NCBI GenBank assembly: GCA_026416715.1
Contig: JAOAEQ010000012.1
Location: forward strand, 30,179 to 94,178
DNA: 64,000 nt
DNA from: a bacterium
GTDB taxonomy: Bacteria; UBP4; UBA4092; JAOAEQ01
Reading direction: 5' to 3'
Each line of letters begins with the position of its first letter. Within the stretch, counting starts at the first letter, position 1. Below are positions 1,557 to 36,801 of this stretch, piece by piece. The translations under genes and the position numbers were made by a program. The notes under the pieces are model-generated. The model saw only the letters and a list, made by a program, of their open reading frames with translations, did not search any database and had not been told where the DNA came from.

Positions 1557-2162
1557 CTAATATCCTCCGTAAATTGGTCCCGTTTGTGGTTCTGCACTTT
1601 TTTGAGCTCGCCAAATATTTCCTGGACTCACGGTTCCATTTGAAGGGTCATATTGCACTGTAGCGGGTGTTAGGGATGTACTATATACTGCATCTGGTCC
1701 GATAGAACACATACGCCAATCTCCATAAATATCCCAAGCTACTTTCCAATATTGACTTGTTGGAAATTCGGTAATATAGTTTTTAACATTGTGATACGTA
1801 TAAATTTCTTCATCCTGCGTTTGTCCGTAACGCGCAAATGGGTCTTTAAAAGCAACATTAGAGATATAGGCTATTGGTGTACTTAATTCTGGCGGCAAAA
1901 TGCCAATCGGTTGATTCGGATATAGTTGAAATGACGGTCGAGGCCATCGACCGGTAGTCATCGGATATACTGTGTTATCTACATTATAAGATTCAATTGC
2001 TGTCGTTACAGTCTGCAATTCCTTTTTAACACGCGATACTTTCGACCGGGTTTGCGCTGCGAGAAAGTTCGGAATCGCAATTGCAGCGAGGATAGCGATA
2101 ATCGCTACGACGATTAACAACTCAATTAAAGTAAACCCATGATATGATTTTTTTACCATCAT
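1557..2162 (-). CDS. Type II secretion-type pseudopilin (prepilin N-methylation domain)
   Basis: The protein opens with a class III prepilin signal: a short basic leader, then G|FTLIELLIVVAIIAILAAIA and FLAAQTRSKVSRVKKEL, as in GspG-like major pseudopilins. Glu at mature position 5 is present. PilD-type processing and assembly in an inner-membrane pseudopilus are known for the family. The C-terminal half has the WRM..IGPD segment and YDPSNGTVSPGNIWR, a motif shared with the two other pseudopilins in this window. A GAGGTG ribosome binding site at 2169-2174 precedes three consecutive ATGs; the one at 2162 has the best spacing, and an upstream GTG overlaps the site. No GspE, GspF or GspD is nearby, so the assembly machine is elsewhere. 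Confidence 0.9.
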   Translation of the reverse strand: MMVKKSYHGFTLIELLIVVAIIAILAAIAIPNFLAAQTRSKVSRVKKELQTVTTAIESYNVDNTVYPMTTGRWPRPSFQLYPNQPIGILPPELSTPIAYISNVAFKDPFARYGQTQDEEIYTYHNVKNYITEFPTSQYWKVAWDIYGDWRMCSIGPDAVYSTSLTPATVQYDPSNGTVSPGNIWRAQKSAEPQTGPIYGGY

Positions 2163-2367
2163 CATTTTCACCTCACTTTCTTTTTTTGTTTCTCTAAAAC
2201 TAAAACAATATATGTGAGAAATAATCTTTATGGTTTAGCTAATATGAACAAAATATCCCGACATTCTGACTATAACTCGGTAAAAATCAGCTGCTAACTC
2301 CGTACAAGAATATTTTTCGATAATTTTCTAAAGTATGAAATTAGCATACTTTTCTTTTGAATGTCAA

Positions 2368-2470: not shown

Positions 2471-4159
2471 TTATTCATTTAGTTCAAACCGTGCATCTTT
2501 GCGTTCAATCGCATCAATAAATAGTGGCGCTGAGGTTGCAATAACATTTATGGTAACTGTTTTCTGTTGTACCGGCGGTCCAGGATCACTTACGGTCAAA
2601 TCAACACTTCCAACATTTACGGCGGTAAAGGTTACGGTTGAACCAGCAGTCGTATTAATCGAACCAACAGTACTATTACTTAATGACCAGCTGAAGTTGT
2701 TCGTTCCACCGCTTGCCGAGAAATCTTTAGTTTTCCCCGGATTGATGATTATTGGACCAACAGGAGTTAATTGCAACGGTAATGCGCCAGTATATCGAGC
2801 ACCACCCGCTAATGGAACGCCACCAGAACCAGCAGTACAATACGCGAAGTTGGTTACATTCAAGAAATTCGGATTGGTTGAATCTAACGAAGCGAATTGC
2901 GGGTCTAGATTAATTACGTTAGTCAAATTTGTGATTCCCGAACCTTCAACTCCATCAATACTACCTGTTGCCAACGTATAACTTAATCCACCAACTAACA
3001 CCAACGCACTGTTACTGATATTTGAGGTATTGGAATTATTCAGATATACATTTACCCCGATATTATCGCTTCCATTACCCGCAAAGATACAATCGGTTAC
3101 TGTGATAGTACTCGTCAGATTACCGGCTTGAACTTCTATCGGGCTCTGCCCGTTATTGTAGAACGTAACTTTATTAATCGTTAACGGCGTATTATGTCCA
3201 ACGCTGGTATCCGCTAGCTGGATACCATCGGTTCCATTATTGGCAATAATGCAATTGGAAACATTGTATAATCCAATACCACCGGGAGTAGCTGAACCGA
3301 GCGTAGCGATTCCTGGACCTACATTATTAGCGATAATCGCCTGGTCGATACTGCCCTGTCCGTTAAACAGATAACATCCACCATAGGTAGCAGATTTATT
3401 GCCAATAATTTTAACTCTACTTTCAGGGGTTCCAGCGATAGTAATATTTGCGGAAGCAGCACTGAACTGTACTCCCATACGGTTATTATACGAAATAACA
3501 CAGCCGGGACCGATGGTAAGAATTCGACCGCAAACGATTCCATCGTTCAAACCAGCATTGCGGTGATTGCTGAATATGGTACTAACCATACTTACCGCAA
3601 CATAACTCGCTGCTGCACCACTTGTAATAAACATACCATCATCACCGAACGGAGTTTTCCCCGTTAAATCAATTTCTGTTAAACCATCTAACGTAACCGG
3701 ATTATTCGTTCCATCGTTTGGCGTAACAACTAACCCTTCCATAATAACATTGAGCGTTTGCACGGTCGCCCCTGGATTGATGAGAATCCCATCATCAGCT
3801 GGTGGTGTCGTTAATGAAGGGATAACATTCAAGTTACGTAATACCACGGTACCCGAGAATCCAGTAATAACCAGTCCGTCATCACCTGCAGATGGACTCG
3901 CAGCGTTCTGCTGTACGCAAACATTCGGTCGTACGCCATATCCTTCTATGGTCAACGGTTTATCAACAGTAATCACTTCATCATACGGGCCAACTCCGAT
4001 GATGCGAATAGTATCACCAGCTACTGAAGCAGTAATTGCAGCGGAAATGGTCGTAAAATCCGCACCGCCAGCAGAGTTAACGGTTCGAATAGCGGCAAGT
4101 GCAGTAAACGGTAATACTAGGATAAGAGGAATCAAAAATATACAATATTTTTTATTCAT
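2471..4159 (-). CDS. Secreted right-handed beta-helix protein with Ig-like domain and APLF tail
   Basis: The 562-residue product has a Sec signal peptide (residues 1 to about 22, ending ALAA). A long Asn/Gly/Ile-rich region follows (about 25-440), with repeated short strands such as NCIIANNGTDG, typical of a right-handed parallel beta-helix (pectate-lyase/NosD-like fold). Residues about 460-540 form an Ig-like strand-rich domain closely related to those ending the next three genes. The protein ends with APLFIDAIERKDARFELNE. An exact AGGAGGTG ribosome binding site precedes the ATG, and a dedicated terminator follows. No catalytic site is evident; the role is probably cell-surface or extracellular glycan binding. 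The tail may be a sorting signal (inference). Confidence 0.8.
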   Translation of the reverse strand: MNKKYCIFLIPLILVLPFTALAAIRTVNSAGGADFTTISAAITASVAGDTIRIIGVGPYDEVITVDKPLTIEGYGVRPNVCVQQNAASPSAGDDGLVITGFSGTVVLRNLNVIPSLTTPPADDGILINPGATVQTLNVIMEGLVVTPNDGTNNPVTLDGLTEIDLTGKTPFGDDGMFITSGAAASYVAVSMVSTIFSNHRNAGLNDGIVCGRILTIGPGCVISYNNRMGVQFSAASANITIAGTPESRVKIIGNKSATYGGCYLFNGQGSIDQAIIANNVGPGIATLGSATPGGIGLYNVSNCIIANNGTDGIQLADTSVGHNTPLTINKVTFYNNGQSPIEVQAGNLTSTITVTDCIFAGNGSDNIGVNVYLNNSNTSNISNSALVLVGGLSYTLATGSIDGVEGSGITNLTNVINLDPQFASLDSTNPNFLNVTNFAYCTAGSGGVPLAGGARYTGALPLQLTPVGPIIINPGKTKDFSASGGTNNFSWSLSNSTVGSINTTAGSTVTFTAVNVGSVDLTVSDPGPPVQQKTVTINVIATSAPLFIDAIERKDARFELNE

Positions 4160-4240
4160 ACCATTTCACCTCCTTTCTGGATAACATAACTCTCCATTTT
4201 ACACCTGAATATACTATAGCAGGTCGAAATAAAAATGTCA

Positions 4241-4287
4241 AATAAAAAAAGCGGAGTAAATGCTTTTTTTCGCATTAACTCCGCTTA
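4241..4287 (-). terminator. Intrinsic terminator of the beta-helix gene at 4327
   Basis: A 14-bp stem with one mismatch (4250-4263 with 4272-4285) is followed on the minus strand by a T-tract (A-run 4243-4250). The stem begins AGCGGAGT, related to the neighbouring terminators. Confidence 0.8.
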
Positions 4288-4326
4288 ATTTTTAATATCA
4301 AATTTCAACAACCCTTTTTATTCCGA

Positions 4327-6291
4327 TCATTCCGCTTGTTCTATGCTACTTCGTTTATTCTCGACTGCTTCAATAAATAACGGAGCAGTCGTTGGAATAA
4401 CTGAAACCGGGATCGTAAACTTTTTCGGTGTCGGAGTTGTCGAATCGGTTACTGTAATCGATCCGTATGCAGTTGAATCCGTCGGTGTAAATTGTACTAT
4501 TGCTCCGGTGTTCACATCTAAAGTCCCAATTCCGCCATTAACTACCCAATAATAATCCGGAGTCCCGCCAAACGCGTTAATCGTTATCGCCGGGTCACCT
4601 GGTCGAGTAACAATACTTGCCGGCGTGGTATATAGTGGTGGAATCGGTTCATCGCAACCTTTCCACGGCGTGGATATACTACGCTGGTTCCCATCAATAT
4701 CAGTCGTAATCGGAAATGGGCTGGTGATTGGGATGCCGGGAGCTAACGGACTTGCATTGACGCCAGTGAAATGTAAATCCGTCTCTGAAACCCATTTATT
4801 CGGACTGGTTGCGAATGGGTCAACATCCTGACTATTGATATCTACACCAGTAACCGTCGTCCAGTTAGATAACGTTAATTGATTCACACCAAACCAGCGA
4901 CCGGTCGTTGCACCGGCAGCAGTATCTGCATATAAATCATTATAATCGCATTCAAGCATTCCTGGAGTCGCAGAGTCTAGTCCATAGATACTGATACATG
5001 CAGCGCCAACCTGCGCTTGTCGGATAATATTGTTTTTTATGCGAACCGTTGTTACCCCGGAAATAAGCGCATTCGCATTGTTTGCAACCAATCCTTGATA
5101 ATTTGGATTTCCTGCCATATTGATTGAATTATGGTAAATGTTGCAAGTGTTATTCCCGACCGCATAGATACCTCGGTAAATTACATTACTAGTATTGACT
5201 GTAGTTCCACCAAGAGCGAATCCGGTGAGCATATTATTGAATACATTATATGTTCCACCAGAGTTACGCAAATCTAGCCCACCTATTCCATACGCTGCGC
5301 CACCGTGTGTATTCCCACTATAGAGTTTATCCAGCACATTATTGTAAATATCCATAGTCCAGCCAGAAGCACCGTTAGCACTAAAGTGCCAAATCCCAGC
5401 ACTATACCAACCAGTTGAAAGTTGGTTAACTCGAACGGTATTGCCCGCAATAGTTGCATTCGCTACGCCATTCAAAAATATCCCACGGGTTCTCGCTTCG
5501 ATAAGATTGTTTCTAAATTCCATTCCGGATGCGCAGGTGCCAGTAGGTAACGGGAAACCCGCAGCGGTACTGAAACCAACCGTAATTCCGTGACCGGAAA
5601 CGCTACTCGTGCAAACGATATAACAGTTTAATACTTTTCCATTATCCGGAATTAAACCAACGGTTGCATTCGTAGTCATACGAGAAGTAAACTGAATAGC
5701 ATGTGGCGAAGCCGCACTCGCACGCGTTCGATTTATAATATTACAATTCTTAATAGTAATATTATCGCAGTCACCGACGATGCGGAAAATCTGCGCGTAT
5801 GTTATGGTGGTATCTTGGTTAATAAAGGTTAGGTCACGGGTATTGGTTCCATTATTCGAACCATCAATAATGATATTATCAGTTTTAACTAAATCATCTA
5901 AACCAGCTCCGGAAGTTGTTGACCTACATCCAATATAAATATGTCCTGAATATCCAGGGTTATCAATAGTCTGAGTAATATTAATAGTTGCAGTCACGCC
6001 GGCAGCCGGTTTAATCAAGACGGTATTAGAACCAACGGTGTTAGCAAAAATAATCGTATATGGCGGTTCGATAGTATCACTGAGAATTTCGACAGTCCAG
6101 TTTCCGGTATTTGCAGTGGTAGTGAAATCTAACGCTGCTTCATACAGGGTAGCGTAATCGCCACCGGTTCCGACTGTTGAGAGTCCCTGACCGGACGGTG
6201 GATCGCTATATTTTTTCGCGTTCCCAGCGGTAATCATTAAACACCAACTCATTGTTATCACAACGATTAAATACATTATTTTTTTATTCAT
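4327..6291 (-). CDS. Secreted beta-helix protein with Ig-like domain and degenerate APLF tail
   Basis: This 654-residue protein starts with a signal peptide (residues 1 to about 25). The segment QGLSTVGTGGDYATLYEAAL matches the usual N-cap of secreted parallel beta-helix proteins. Repeated Asn-Ile-X-Ile turns occupy about 60-520 (for example DNIIIDGSNNG, DNITIKNCNII), giving a right-handed beta-helix. An Ig-like domain (about 555-635) resembles that of its neighbours but is more diverged. The tail APLFIEAVENKRSSIEQAE keeps APLF and the first acidic residue but has lost the RFEL ending. The start is supported by AGGAG in the leader. Surface or extracellular location follows from the signal peptide; ligand and activity are unknown. 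Confidence 0.78.
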   Translation of the reverse strand: MNKKIMYLIVVITMSWCLMITAGNAKKYSDPPSGQGLSTVGTGGDYATLYEAALDFTTTANTGNWTVEILSDTIEPPYTIIFANTVGSNTVLIKPAAGVTATINITQTIDNPGYSGHIYIGCRSTTSGAGLDDLVKTDNIIIDGSNNGTNTRDLTFINQDTTITYAQIFRIVGDCDNITIKNCNIINRTRASAASPHAIQFTSRMTTNATVGLIPDNGKVLNCYIVCTSSVSGHGITVGFSTAAGFPLPTGTCASGMEFRNNLIEARTRGIFLNGVANATIAGNTVRVNQLSTGWYSAGIWHFSANGASGWTMDIYNNVLDKLYSGNTHGGAAYGIGGLDLRNSGGTYNVFNNMLTGFALGGTTVNTSNVIYRGIYAVGNNTCNIYHNSINMAGNPNYQGLVANNANALISGVTTVRIKNNIIRQAQVGAACISIYGLDSATPGMLECDYNDLYADTAAGATTGRWFGVNQLTLSNWTTVTGVDINSQDVDPFATSPNKWVSETDLHFTGVNASPLAPGIPITSPFPITTDIDGNQRSISTPWKGCDEPIPPLYTTPASIVTRPGDPAITINAFGGTPDYYWVVNGGIGTLDVNTGAIVQFTPTDSTAYGSITVTDSTTPTPKKFTIPVSVIPTTAPLFIEAVENKRSSIEQAE

Positions 6292-6444
6292 AGATTTTCT
6301 CCTTTCTTAAAAGTTTATATTTGTAGTAAAGAAAAAAATTTCACCTCCTTCCGATTAACCATAGCGGTTCAACAAAACATAGTTTGTTATAAAGTTCATC
6401 TATTAAATTATAAGTTTACATTACAATCCTAATATTCTGCAACG

Positions 6445-6480
6445 AAAAACGGAGAATTTCATAAACCGAAATTCTCCGTT
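6445..6480 (-). terminator. Intrinsic terminator of the propeller gene at 6513
   Basis: A perfect 13-bp stem (6448-6460 with 6468-6480) has a 7-base loop, with a short T-run on the minus strand from 6445-6449. The stem core CGGAGAA is shared with the adjacent terminators. Confidence 0.75.
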
Positions 6481-6512
6481 ATCCTCCATACCCAAATTCA
6501 CCTTACACTGCT

Positions 6513-8261
6513 CTAGTCTAACAGTTCGAATCGGATATTATCCTTCCGCAATTCGCGTTCGTTGAATAACGGTGCGCCGGTTGGGAGAACCGTAATCGAA
6601 ATGATTATCTGCTGCGGGGTCGGCGTCCGTGAATCAGCGACGGTTAAATCAACTGAACCACCGGCTATCGCAGTAAAGGTTACGACTGCACCTTCCGTAG
6701 TATCGAGTGAACCAACGCCAGTCGTACTTAACGACCAAGTATATGGCGGTTTACCACCACTTGCAGTAAACTGTTTATTCTGGCCGACTGATATCGTTAT
6801 CGGACTGACTGGGGTTACTGCAAATACCACCCCGTTATCTATCGTATATCCCGCTACTGTCGTAAACGAATTCGGTCCATCCGGTGGCGAATAGATACGC
6901 AATACTTCGTTGATGTTACAGGCGAGATAAATATTTCCTGCGGCATCACAATCCGGTCCTCGGGGAGCAGCGGTACCGTAAGGTCCATTCCATTTAACAA
7001 TCGTAGTTACCGAACTCAAATTACCAACAGGTAATGGGAGCGGAACTACAACGAATCCACCTGTATCAATGTTTGTACTCGCTCCAACAATTAACCGATT
7101 ATGTGCTTCGTCAAGAATGAACCCACCACGGCAATCACGGAGTGGGTCAGGCGTGGTTCCGCCATTTCCGGTAGAAATCGAATCCCAGTAGATTGATTGG
7201 CCATTAGGGCTAAATACGACAATTGACGGACAATCTGTTCCCGCAGAACGATAATTCGCTACATACCATCTTCCGGCGCTATCTCGACGTATTGTTCCCG
7301 GAGCATCATTAATCAAAATACCGCCGCTCGTCCCAGGTGGCGTAGTAAAATTCGCATCATCAATAACTACAGTTGGTGCACCAGTCCACGGGAAAGGTCC
7401 GTTTCCAATATTATATTTCCAAATACTTCTAGCGCGTGGTTCAGTATTGTCAGGATAATCTTCATCTTGAGTATATAGAACCGTATTCGTGCCGGTTCCT
7501 TCCACCCAGACACCAGCAACACTTCCGTGAATATTTGGTACTAATCCTGACGGTGTTCGACCGGTATTATCAAGGATTTCGACCCAAGAACCAGATAAAT
7601 CCGCTTCTGCTCGCCATACTCCGGAATGGGCATCTGACCAATCTGCAATCCAGAGTTTGTCATCCGGACCAACAAACAGATGATAGGGACTATTTGCGCT
7701 AAGACCCCAGTTTACATTGCCGGTGCGAGTAGTATTGAGCGCTCCAATCGGGTCGGATAAGTCAGGATAGAATCCATAAACACCGTCATAACATGGTTTA
7801 CCACCATAGGTAGTCCCGTTTCTTCCGTTAGCAAGATAAATCATCCCGAAATATGGACTTCCGTTGTTCTTATTTACTGCTACCCCGCGTGGATATTCAA
7901 AATGTAGCGTGGTATTCGCATCGTTCGTTAACAGATCCCAGCTTGAATGACCGACATTATCTACTGCATGAACTTTAACTCCGAACGTTCCGGTAGGCAA
8001 GAGACCTCCGTTTGCCCACGCCCAGGTAACAGTATTTGCGCCGAAATTGGTTGTTCCTGGTAACGATTGAACAATCGTTGTTGAAGGCAATGGTCCATAA
8101 ATTTGGACGGTTACTGCACTGCAGGTTTCGTTTAACCGGTAAACAATTTCCAGGTTACCGCCAGTAGTACTGATAGTTATCCCAAACGGCATAACATTCG
8201 CAAATGTACTTCCGGCAATAATCGAAAACAGAATGATTGATATAATAATTTGTTTTTTCAT
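6513..8261 (-). CDS. Secreted propeller-like protein with Ig-like domain and APLF tail
   Basis: The 582-residue product has a signal peptide (1 to about 22). An N-terminal beta domain with a V-x-V-x-I pattern follows, resembling the FlgD-type Ig-like module (about 25-110). The middle has blocks of the NHL/SMP-30 propeller style, such as RGVAVNKNNGS, GPDDKLWIADW and CDAAGNIYLACN. A C-terminal Ig-like domain (about 480-560) and the tail APLFNERELRKDNIRFELLD end the protein. The leader has a strong GGAGGGAG ribosome binding site. The protein is probably exported and binding rather than catalytic; propeller proteins of this style read as repeat scaffolds. Blade number needs structure prediction. 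Confidence 0.75.
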   Translation of the reverse strand: MKKQIIISIILFSIIAGSTFANVMPFGITISTTGGNLEIVYRLNETCSAVTVQIYGPLPSTTIVQSLPGTTNFGANTVTWAWANGGLLPTGTFGVKVHAVDNVGHSSWDLLTNDANTTLHFEYPRGVAVNKNNGSPYFGMIYLANGRNGTTYGGKPCYDGVYGFYPDLSDPIGALNTTRTGNVNWGLSANSPYHLFVGPDDKLWIADWSDAHSGVWRAEADLSGSWVEILDNTGRTPSGLVPNIHGSVAGVWVEGTGTNTVLYTQDEDYPDNTEPRARSIWKYNIGNGPFPWTGAPTVVIDDANFTTPPGTSGGILINDAPGTIRRDSAGRWYVANYRSAGTDCPSIVVFSPNGQSIYWDSISTGNGGTTPDPLRDCRGGFILDEAHNRLIVGASTNIDTGGFVVVPLPLPVGNLSSVTTIVKWNGPYGTAAPRGPDCDAAGNIYLACNINEVLRIYSPPDGPNSFTTVAGYTIDNGVVFAVTPVSPITISVGQNKQFTASGGKPPYTWSLSTTGVGSLDTTEGAVVTFTAIAGGSVDLTVADSRTPTPQQIIISITVLPTGAPLFNERELRKDNIRFELLD

Positions 8262-8348
8262 TAGTTATATCTCCCTCCTTTCGTGATTTAGATAAAATTT
8301 CTATTTATAGTTTACACTTTATACCTAATTTTGTCAATCTTTTTTATT

Positions 8349-8389
8349 AAAAAAAAGCGGAGAAACTGGTTATTACCAATTTCTCCGCT
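8349..8389 (-). terminator. Intrinsic terminator of the Kelch-like gene at 8420
   Basis: A 15-bp stem with one G-T pair (8356-8370 with 8375-8389) has a 4-base loop. On the minus strand a T-tract from the A-run at 8349-8356 follows it. Confidence 0.85.
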
Positions 8390-8419
8390 ACATTACTATC
8401 TGGATACCATCGGTTGCTT

Positions 8420-10138
8420 TTAATCAAACAACTCGAATCGGATATATCTTTTCGATTCAGCTTCTTTAAACAACGGGGCAGATGTTGGAACGACGGTAAT
8501 AGTAACTGTTTTCTGTTGTGCTGGAGGGCCTGGGTCGCTCACCGTTAAGTCAACCGATCCTGACCCTGTTGCCGTGAACGTTACCGTGGCACCAGTTGTC
8601 GAACTAAGGTAACCTACAGTATCATTACTCAATGCCCAGGTGAAGTTACCAGTTCCGCCACTAGCCGTGAAATTCTTTGTTCCGCCAGGATTCATCAGCT
8701 GAGGAATAGAAGGATTCAATGTTAACGGATCTGTACCAGATACACTAACAATAACAGTATCGGTGTCATTATACGCGTCAGCTACGGTTATACTAGCTGA
8801 ACCAGACAATAGCGCTTGAACAATTGCAGAATTACCTCCGTAGCTAATCACTTGCGCAACTGCTGGGTTACTGCTAGTCCAAATATAAGGACCGGTTCCG
8901 TTACTCACAGTATAAATTGCTGTTGAACTTGAACCTAAAGCAGTTGGTCCACTTGCTGACGGTAGCGTGTAGATAACCTCGCTATAAAACACCGCTGAAC
9001 TTAAACCGTATCCATCAGTACCAAAATCAGGATTATTCGTATTTCTGGTGCTCGTAAATGGTAAATTGCATCGCCCGCCGATAAGATATACTCGTTGCTG
9101 TTTATTGACAGTAGCAATCACCGCAGGGCTATAATAATATCCCGTAGTAGAACTCCCGATAGCCATTAACCCATCGATAGTAAAGGTACCAATGTCGCCA
9201 GAGGGTGAAATCGGGGCGCGGTATATAGTCGGCTGAGCAAAAGCACCGCTTCCAGTGTTTCGTCTCCCGCCAATTAAAAAAACATCATGCTTAGAATATG
9301 CAACAGCACCACCATAAATTCCCCACATGATTAAGGGCAATGTATCTGTTGACCATGGTTGCAATGTTCCGTCAGGATTAATGGTGGTTTTATAAATATT
9401 ATTATGTGAACCGGTACCTGAACTACCGGTAGTCAGTCCACCGAAAGTATAGAGTTTGTTCTGCACAGCGATAGCGGCATTAAACCACATTCCAGCTGGA
9501 ATATTGGCAACTTCCGTCCAAGGACTCAACGCGCCGGTTGCTGGATTGACCACCGACATAAATACTTTTGGAGTTCGAGAACCGTCATCCGCCTGACCGG
9601 AAACAGCATAAACATAGGTTGTTCCGTTGATAGTTGCATACGTTGCGGGGCCCCAGAGTCCACCGGTACCTATCCCAGTTGGAAACGGAGAACGAACTCC
9701 CCAACTAGTGATATTACCACCAGGTTCAATTTTACCCCATAGTGAATCCCCGTTATTAGCGCCATTGGCGTTACCTACGTTCCAACCACCACCAATACGA
9801 TACACATAGCCATTGGCTTCAAAACATGAGAATTCAATATATGCAGCTAATGGATATGTTCCAGGGTCATTACTCGGCACAGGAAAAGCTGTAGCTTGTG
9901 ACCATGGGCCGACACTACCATCCGAATTAACTGGTGCATAAAAAACATTATACATATCACCTAGTGCTACGCTATTCCCACCAAGAACATAGGCATAACC
10001 ACTTGGACCCATAACCAATCCGTGCATTTGGGTAGGATACGGTAGATAACCAGTGGTGTGTCGTGTAAAAGTTATAGCAAACCCTGATACACTTATGAGA
10101 CATAACATTACTGTAAATACTAAAATCTTTTTGCTCAT
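8420..10138 (-). CDS. Secreted Kelch-like propeller protein with two Ig-like domains and APLF tail
   Basis: This protein of 572 residues has a signal peptide (1 to about 21). Repeats with the Kelch style follow, such as YAYVLGGNS, YVYRIGGGWN, KLYTFGGLT, DVFLIGGRR and RVYLIGGRC, about one every 50-60 residues; together they should form a beta-propeller (about 25-390). A BIG2-like domain (about 395-470) precedes the Ig-like domain common to all four proteins (about 475-550) and the tail APLFKEAESKRYIRFELFD. The last domain and tail are closest to those of the gene at 2471, so modules have been shared between unrelated N-terminal folds. A GGAGGG ribosome binding site is present. Function is unknown; extracellular display is likely. 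Confidence 0.8.
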   Translation of the reverse strand: MSKKILVFTVMLCLISVSGFAITFTRHTTGYLPYPTQMHGLVMGPSGYAYVLGGNSVALGDMYNVFYAPVNSDGSVGPWSQATAFPVPSNDPGTYPLAAYIEFSCFEANGYVYRIGGGWNVGNANGANNGDSLWGKIEPGGNITSWGVRSPFPTGIGTGGLWGPATYATINGTTYVYAVSGQADDGSRTPKVFMSVVNPATGALSPWTEVANIPAGMWFNAAIAVQNKLYTFGGLTTGSSGTGSHNNIYKTTINPDGTLQPWSTDTLPLIMWGIYGGAVAYSKHDVFLIGGRRNTGSGAFAQPTIYRAPISPSGDIGTFTIDGLMAIGSSTTGYYYSPAVIATVNKQQRVYLIGGRCNLPFTSTRNTNNPDFGTDGYGLSSAVFYSEVIYTLPSASGPTALGSSSTAIYTVSNGTGPYIWTSSNPAVAQVISYGGNSAIVQALLSGSASITVADAYNDTDTVIVSVSGTDPLTLNPSIPQLMNPGGTKNFTASGGTGNFTWALSNDTVGYLSSTTGATVTFTATGSGSVDLTVSDPGPPAQQKTVTITVVPTSAPLFKEAESKRYIRFELFD

Positions 10139-10255: not shown

Positions 10256-10850
10256 TTAATATCCTGCAGGAGCTGGTGGTTCACCCCATCGGTCAGGATA
10301 CTTGCCAACTGGTCCTAGTCGTAATATATCGCCGTTACTGACGGTGCCATTCGTCGGGTCATAAAATTCCCAAGCATAATCCTGTTTCAAATCCGGTCCG
10401 GCACTACTTAATCGCCATGCCCGCTGATATAATCCCGGTGCCCAGCTAAATCCACGGTCACGTTGGGTTTGTTCATCGCAATAATCGTAGGTATCATACA
10501 CATCGGCACCGTATGGTCCGCCGACTTCTCGTTGTGGAACAAACGGGTCTGGTTTCGGGATTTTGGTAATATACGCAACCGGCGTGGTTAAACAGTTGAG
10601 TCGTTTTGAAACTGGAATATTCGAATTGGGGTATCCATGGAATATACCACATCGGATACTGGTTCGCATCGGTATAATAAGCTTCGAGTGCTGTTCCGAT
10701 TGTTCGCATTTCTCCTTTTGCACGGGAGACTTTCGCGCGCACCTGTGCTGCGAGAAAATTCGGGATAGCGATTGCCGCAAGTATCGCAATAATCGCAACG
10801 ACAATTAATAATTCAATTAACGTAAATCCATAACTTTTATTTTTTTGCAT
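10256..10850 (-). pseudogene. Pseudopilin gene broken by a single frameshift
   Basis: The first frame begins at the ATG at 10850, placed nine bases after a GAGGTG site; an ATG at 10868 overlaps that site and is unlikely. It encodes a standard prepilin start (GFTLIELLIVVAIIAILAA, FLAAQVRAKVSRAKGEM, AYYTDANQYPMW). The rest of the protein (TTPVAYITKIPKPDPF, WRLSSAGPDL, YDPTNGTVSNGDILR) is read one base out of phase. Aligning with the intact pseudopilins at 1557 and 33989 puts the break at about 10630-10665. Each half alone lacks essential parts. It may be a true inactivating mutation or an assembly error. Apart from this break the gene looks well preserved. Confidence 0.8.
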
Positions 10851-10991
10851 TTTATCTTCACCTCGCATTGTTTATTTTTTATGGAATGTTTGATATGTAT
10901 TATTAGCACAAATCGAGTTATTTCGTCAAATAAAAATTAATTAATAGACTACTATCTTTGCTTTTAAAAAAATTTCAGCTGTAACAAAACC

Positions 10992-36712: not shown

Positions 36713-36788
36713 CGGGGCGTAGCGCAGACCGGTTTAGCGCGCCTGCCTTGGGAGCAGGAGGTCACCAGTTCAAATCTGGTCGCCCCGA
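36713..36788 (+). tRNA. tRNA-Pro (anticodon TGG)
   Basis: The cloverleaf is complete. The acceptor stem CGGGGCG (36713-36719) pairs with CGCCCCG (36781-36787), and the discriminator is A. The anticodon arm CCTGC-CTTGGGA-GCAGG has anticodon TGG at 36749-36751 and G37. The T-arm CCAGTTCAAATCTGG closes the T-loop. The genome encodes the CCA end (36789-36791). Confidence 0.97.
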
Positions 36789-36801
36789 CCAGTATCGACC
36801 T

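Follow-up and report, generated by a model that had tools for sequence, protein, structure and literature searches.

C-terminal sorting tails have earlier led to exosortases, rhombosortase, and myxosortase. In the LPXTG, PEP-CTERM, and GlyGly-CTERM systems, the tail combines a signature motif with a transmembrane (TM) helix and a basic cluster (PMC3237569), and the C-terminal domain (CTD) of type IX secretion is an immunoglobulin (Ig)-like domain whose signal lies in its last two strands (PMC4804311). Here, we analyzed a stretch of 64,000 nucleotides (the window) from a bacterium of candidate phylum UBP4 (GCA_026416715.1, contig JAOAEQ010000012.1, positions 30,179 to 94,178), in which four consecutive minus-strand open reading frames (ORFs), genes 1 to 4 (2471-4159, 4327-6291, 6513-8261, and 8420-10138), had been noted to end in an Ig-like domain and a short charged tail. 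All four ORFs were found with these tails. We know of no cultured member of UBP4, and the class-level comparison was made between two genomes of the same class, that of the window itself (G000; 2.96 Mb, reported 100% complete) and that of bacterium UBP4_UBA6127 (G001; 97% complete). The best reading overall, to which we assign a probability of about 0.6, is that Sec-exported UBP4 proteins carry the tail as a C-terminal signal for recognition.

A profile search for the Ig-like domain plus tail found 16 proteins in the window's genome, with tails ranging from TSAPLFLDRDSSYYSRKELFE to KAPLFPESELKSTVREIPTRVPLQGQRGWELFE, and about 11 matches in UBP4_UBA6127; the tail is therefore not confined to the four copies first seen. 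The tails follow the consensus T-x-AP-[LIV], a variable linker, and [W/F/Y/R]-x-[LI]-[FMY]-[ED] at the very end. Those of UBP4_UBA6127 are shorter than those of the window's genome (TSAPLARDWSLME, TSAPLARDWALME, TSAPVFKDLFE, TNAPLAMELME, TNAPLARQSIYELFE, and TSAPLFWGLTE) and thus place the conserved core in the C-terminal aromatic-x-[LI]-[FMY]-[ED]. The length of the charged linker ranges from zero to ~25 residues, while the last residues stay. The first-pass annotation had taken a charged block of 19-20 residues as the signal, which did not hold: the conserved parts are the last ~5 residues and T-x-AP-[LIV], the linker is variable, and the Ig domain is optional. Its statement that the tail has neither a membrane helix nor a basic end was borne out, with a highest mean hydropathy of 0.73 over all tails. 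Of 27 tails, 21 end in E or D, and only 3 have a basic residue within the last four positions.

The tail was almost always strictly C-terminal, with 13 terminal vs two internal matches, the latter being one cytosolic coincidence and one tail with a 21-residue extension. By a simple hydropathy rule, 42 of the 44 tail proteins whose starts are intact have a Sec-like N-terminus, whereas 231 of 568 ORFs in the background set do. Both exceptions are truncated ORFs, and no obvious lipobox was seen in the tail proteins screened for Sec-like N-termini. The carriers are proteins of surface or extracellular type: propellers, beta-helices, and glycoside hydrolases (GH18, GH5, and GH26). Separately, an orphan fragment consisting of Ig-like domain and tail, without body or signal peptide, was found at L214 3543-3866 (G000:C15) and is probably a gene remnant.

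The Ig-like part proved to be an unremarkable domain of the Big/intimin type. It matched Pfam Big_2 (8.3e-11) for one member and PKD (1.4e-6), its best Foldseek match was a Leptospira Big domain, with the fold also resembling intimin and S-layer domains, and VIA-align gave Z values of 10-12 to several Big-type domains, with many rows tied. In two AlphaFold models, the Ig fold was complete before T-x-AP-L; the tail is not the final strand of that fold. In the same models, long and short tails alike showed no secondary structure and a predicted local distance difference test (pLDDT) of 51-65. Together with the copy number and the C-terminal position, this means that each of the three refuting checks named in the first-pass annotation favored its observation.

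Body homologies were obtained by all-against-all BLASTP of the tail proteins. Homologous bodies with other ends were seen for three of the window proteins (genes 1, 2, and 3). The gene 1 protein was 34% identical over 489 columns to a UBP4_UBA6127 homologue that lacks the Ig domain and ends in VVPVELSSFQVE, and the gene 3 protein was 54% identical over 486 columns to another homologue of that genome, likewise without the Ig domain, which ends in TSKEWMLYE. Gene 2 showed 37% identity to proteins ending in VPVELSRFETETY (window's genome) and VPVELSGFMTE (UBP4_UBA6127) and 43% identity to a protein of the window's genome ending in TSAPLF..TRFEIFE. A UBP4_UBA6127 protein ending in NDWFLMD was 33% identical over 660 columns to a protein with the Ig domain and APLARDWSLME. 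The pairs with swapped ends comprised gene 1 and L224_11409; gene 2 and L221_4318 or L210_11992; gene 3 and L223_4377; and L221_6667 and L222_8600. W-x-L-[FY]-E ends also occurred without the T-x-AP-L Ig module, on a GH18 enzyme (FWWLFE), a GH5/F5-8C protein (PTEIKSFWQLFE), and a GH26/golvesin protein (KWILYE). Judged by how often it occurs internally, the exact terminal pattern W.[LF][FLIVYHND]E would be expected 0.09 times in a genome; five cases were found in the window's genome (one codon pattern). These results indicate that the tail is modular: it occurs with or without the Ig spacer and is replaceable on homologous bodies by W-x-L-Y-E or VPVELSxF. An exact ELF[DE]-stop pattern was also tried as a marker of the tail and gave seven matches vs three in controls, too weak to be used alone.

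The second type of end, in which 2-25 residues follow VPVELSxF, was observed at the C-terminus of exported homologues of Ig-plus-tail proteins in both genomes (for example, L210 11992-13866, L221 4318-5994, L224 11409-12776, and L226 5213-6873). VPVELSxF presumably resembles a motif that is widespread among type IX lineages, a likeness that would favor a diverged type IX sorting domain, but SprA was not detected in either genome.

We compared the tails of four UBP4_UBA6127 proteins at the amino acid and codon levels. Their 14 tail residues were 79-100% identical vs 25-49% for the Ig domains; where residues were identical, 18-31% of third codon positions differed, and beyond the stop codon the DNA was unrelated, one tandem pair excepted. 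In a pair whose Ig domains are 75% identical, the linker was altered while the core DW[AS][LI][ML]E was retained. These results indicate that the tail, conserved at the amino acid level in two families of the class, is under protein-level selection rather than being a product of recent DNA copying. They bear directly on the alternative that the tail is the inherited end of a duplicated and shuffled Ig-plus-tail module, conserved by descent and without a role in recognition. The Ig domain and tail have clearly spread jointly as one homologous module, tandem duplicates exist (the downstream DNA is 64% alike in one pair), and some tails have decayed. However, the tail is conserved above the Ig domain although the downstream DNA is unrelated, the same type of end stands on proteins that have no Ig domain, and the length of the linker is free while the last residues stay. 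The module swaps and the codon-level data thus weaken pure inheritance, which we regard as unlikely.

The tail was not found outside the class: matches in 384 genomes covered the Ig part alone and ended at or near the domain end, and the C-termini read among these out-of-class Ig matches were other sequences without the tail. Neither the tail nor VPVELSxF stood on any of 1,105 control ORFs around argS in other phyla. No NCBIfam or Pfam family covers the tail, and a literature search returned no paper on it or on the PVELTSF string, with UBP4 itself barely mentioned. Within the class, the C-terminal composition of all Sec-like proteins, taken position by position, showed no general enrichment, which indicates that the tail is confined to a subset of them.

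In the window, the gene 1 product has a beta-helix-like body and a Sec-like N-terminus, with the Ig-like domain (Big/PKD type) at 2531-2779 and the tail APLFIDAIERKDARFELNE at 2474-2530; all features given here lie on the minus strand, and the limits of the Ig-like domains of genes 1 to 3 are approximate. Gene 2, which also encodes an exported beta-helix-like protein, carries its Ig-like domain at 4387-4635 and the tail APLFIEAVENKRSSIEQAE at 4330-4386. This tail ends in SSIEQAE and is indeed the weakest of the four, as first noted. Gene 3 (exported, NHL-like propeller) has its Ig-like domain at 6576-6824 and the tail APLFNERELRKDNIRFELLD at 6516-6575, and gene 4 (exported, Kelch-like) has a terminal Ig-like domain at 8480-8728, modeled by AlphaFold as an Ig fold with the tail outside, and the tail APLFKEAESKRYIRFELFD at 8423-8479. 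The N-terminal bodies do differ, as described in the first-pass annotation: Pfam supported Kelch in gene 4, the NHL/FlgD_ig assignment of gene 3 was weak, and genes 1 and 2 had no confident family. A single Ig-like domain per protein had also been described; gene 4 has two, the other one lying ahead of the terminal one. In the six-frame translation of the window, APLF occurred only in the four tail genes. RFEL had one further occurrence, a spurious reading (GATRFELVTSCSQ) across tRNA-Pro at 36713-36791.

Prepilin-like (pseudopilin) genes flank the four-gene block on both sides, as had been stated. The one adjoining gene 1 (1557-2171, minus strand; N_methyl) ends in YDPSNGTVSPGNIWR. The one adjoining gene 4 (10256-10868, minus strand) carries YDPTNGTVSNGDILR in the second of two overlapping ORFs into which a frameshift has split it, and is either a pseudogene or the site of an assembly error. 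The gene at 1557-2171 belongs to a prepilin-like family with a C-terminal YDP[TS]NGTxSxGDIxR motif, found at 19 places in the window's genome and 28 in UBP4_UBA6127, often in tandem (L248-L252, L228-L232) and scattered beside unrelated operons.

Furthermore, we examined the export machinery. Several secretins were found in both genomes, with GspD over cut-off in each, and family matches to GspK, GspM, GspG, and GspH surrounded them (GspG over cut-off in UBP4_UBA6127, NCBIfam GspK below cut-off). PilM-PilQ-like clusters were also present in both genomes. Of 57 tail genes, 12 had a prepilin-like gene beside them, compared with 15 of 616 genes in the background (Fisher P 3e-7). Two or three of these 12 tail genes came from prepilin searches and operon neighbors are not independent, so the adjacency is supportive rather than decisive; in the independently found Ig-plus-tail set, it held for 6 of 27. 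As a separate observation, both genomes encode very long secretin-family proteins (~1230 and ~1420 amino acids; L329 7614-11297 and L332 4031-8287) by PilM-like and polA-like genes.

Under the recognition reading, a carrier would be exported by Sec and would then fold in the periplasm, with the Ig-like domain serving as a spacer that presents the tail. The free tail would be bound by a receptor, leading to passage across the outer membrane or retention on the surface. The most plausible candidate for the machine would be type II secretion or a related pilin-type system, favored because GspD secretins and GspG/H/K/M are present in both genomes and tail genes often adjoin prepilin-like genes. 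A recognition tail of some kind is the claim that we hold a little more firmly than the reading as a whole. That its reader is a type II or pilin-type machine we consider possible, though short of probable, and a dedicated UBP4 route for export or surface display, in which the acidic-aromatic tail and VPVELSxF are interchangeable codes read by a secretin/pilin-type machine, is rather doubtful.

Several points weigh against the recognition reading. An unbiased sample of 594 ORFs contained a single exact W-type end and two or three ends of the VPVEL type, indicating that most exported proteins lack the tail. Some tails are degenerate (SSIEQAE of gene 2, KLDLQ, VRLEE, and HRILWDNF) or extended beyond the core, and many tail genes have no prepilin neighbor. 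A linear C-terminal signal is unusual among type II substrates. Neither genome yielded a receptor, protease, or anchoring gene for the tail, and the "recognition tag" of the first-pass annotation therefore keeps its conditional form. That interpretation is partly supported: the tail is recurrent, C-terminal, and outside the Ig fold, and the link to pseudopilins is statistical only.

The prepilin-like neighbors would also suit a tail that acts as an assembly or anchoring strand, adding to pilin-like or surface proteins by beta-augmentation in the style of PilY1 on minor pilins, keeping the carrier attached to a filament or to the cell, and having no export role. The tail is short and extended, with alternating hydrophobic residues, and the prepilin-like genes adjoining tail genes share the C-terminal YDPTNGT motif. 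However, most tail genes have no such neighbor, and many of the 19 and 28 YDPTNGT genes are located elsewhere, making an anchoring strand improbable. A mark for degradation or quality control by a PDZ-type periplasmic protease would suit a short, unstructured tail with a free C-terminus; known degrons of that type, however, end in small or hydrophobic residues, the UBP4 tail ends in E or D, and its conservation on extracellular enzymes that are intact speaks for a positive role, which makes this explanation very unlikely. A diverged type IX sorting domain is largely refuted: type IX CTDs are likewise C-terminal and Ig-like, but their signal is formed by the last two strands (PMC4804311), whereas the UBP4 tail follows a complete Big-type domain that is dispensable in the carriers, and SprA (TIGR04189) gave 0 matches in either UBP4 genome vs matches over cut-off in five of five Fibrobacteres-Chlorobi-Bacteroidetes (FCB) genomes in the same run. 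PF14349 (SprA) had no match in the UBP4 genomes, but none in the controls either.

Turning to the described systems, the UBP4 tail shares with LPXTG, PEP-CTERM, GlyGly-CTERM, and MYXO-CTERM a lineage-specific C-terminal homology on many signal-peptide proteins, for which a many-to-one arrangement is expected. Unlike LPXTG, PEP-CTERM, and GlyGly-CTERM, it has no TM helix, and its last residue is acidic. With type IX CTDs it has in common the C-terminal position, unrelated Sec-exported bodies, the association with an Ig-like domain, and many copies per genome; it differs in lying outside the Ig fold and occurring also without it, in genomes in which SprA was not detected. The domain before the tail is the same as the Ig-like domains of Big_2/PKD, intimin, and LigA, and the family matches stop short of the tail. 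The W-x-x-x-E core is superficially like the type VII YxxxD/E motif, type VII being unlikely given the beta-rich carriers and the secretins. As with type II substrates, the carriers have a Sec-type N-terminus and type II system genes are present in both genomes. PilY1/minor pilin tips and type II pseudopili offer a further parallel: there too, secretin systems and prepilins stand near large beta-rich proteins that are exported. No PilY1 domain was identified.

Should the tail serve as a secretion signal read by a secretin machine, a machine family normally regarded as recognizing folded substrates alone would have a linear C-terminal code, and the long-standing question of cargo choice by type II-like systems would become directly testable. 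With the tail, part of the UBP4 surface proteome can also be predicted in a simple way. A tail without a TM helix, in genomes in which SprA was not detected, points to another recognition principle; it falls outside the known sorting-tail architectures tested and looks like an undescribed address label.

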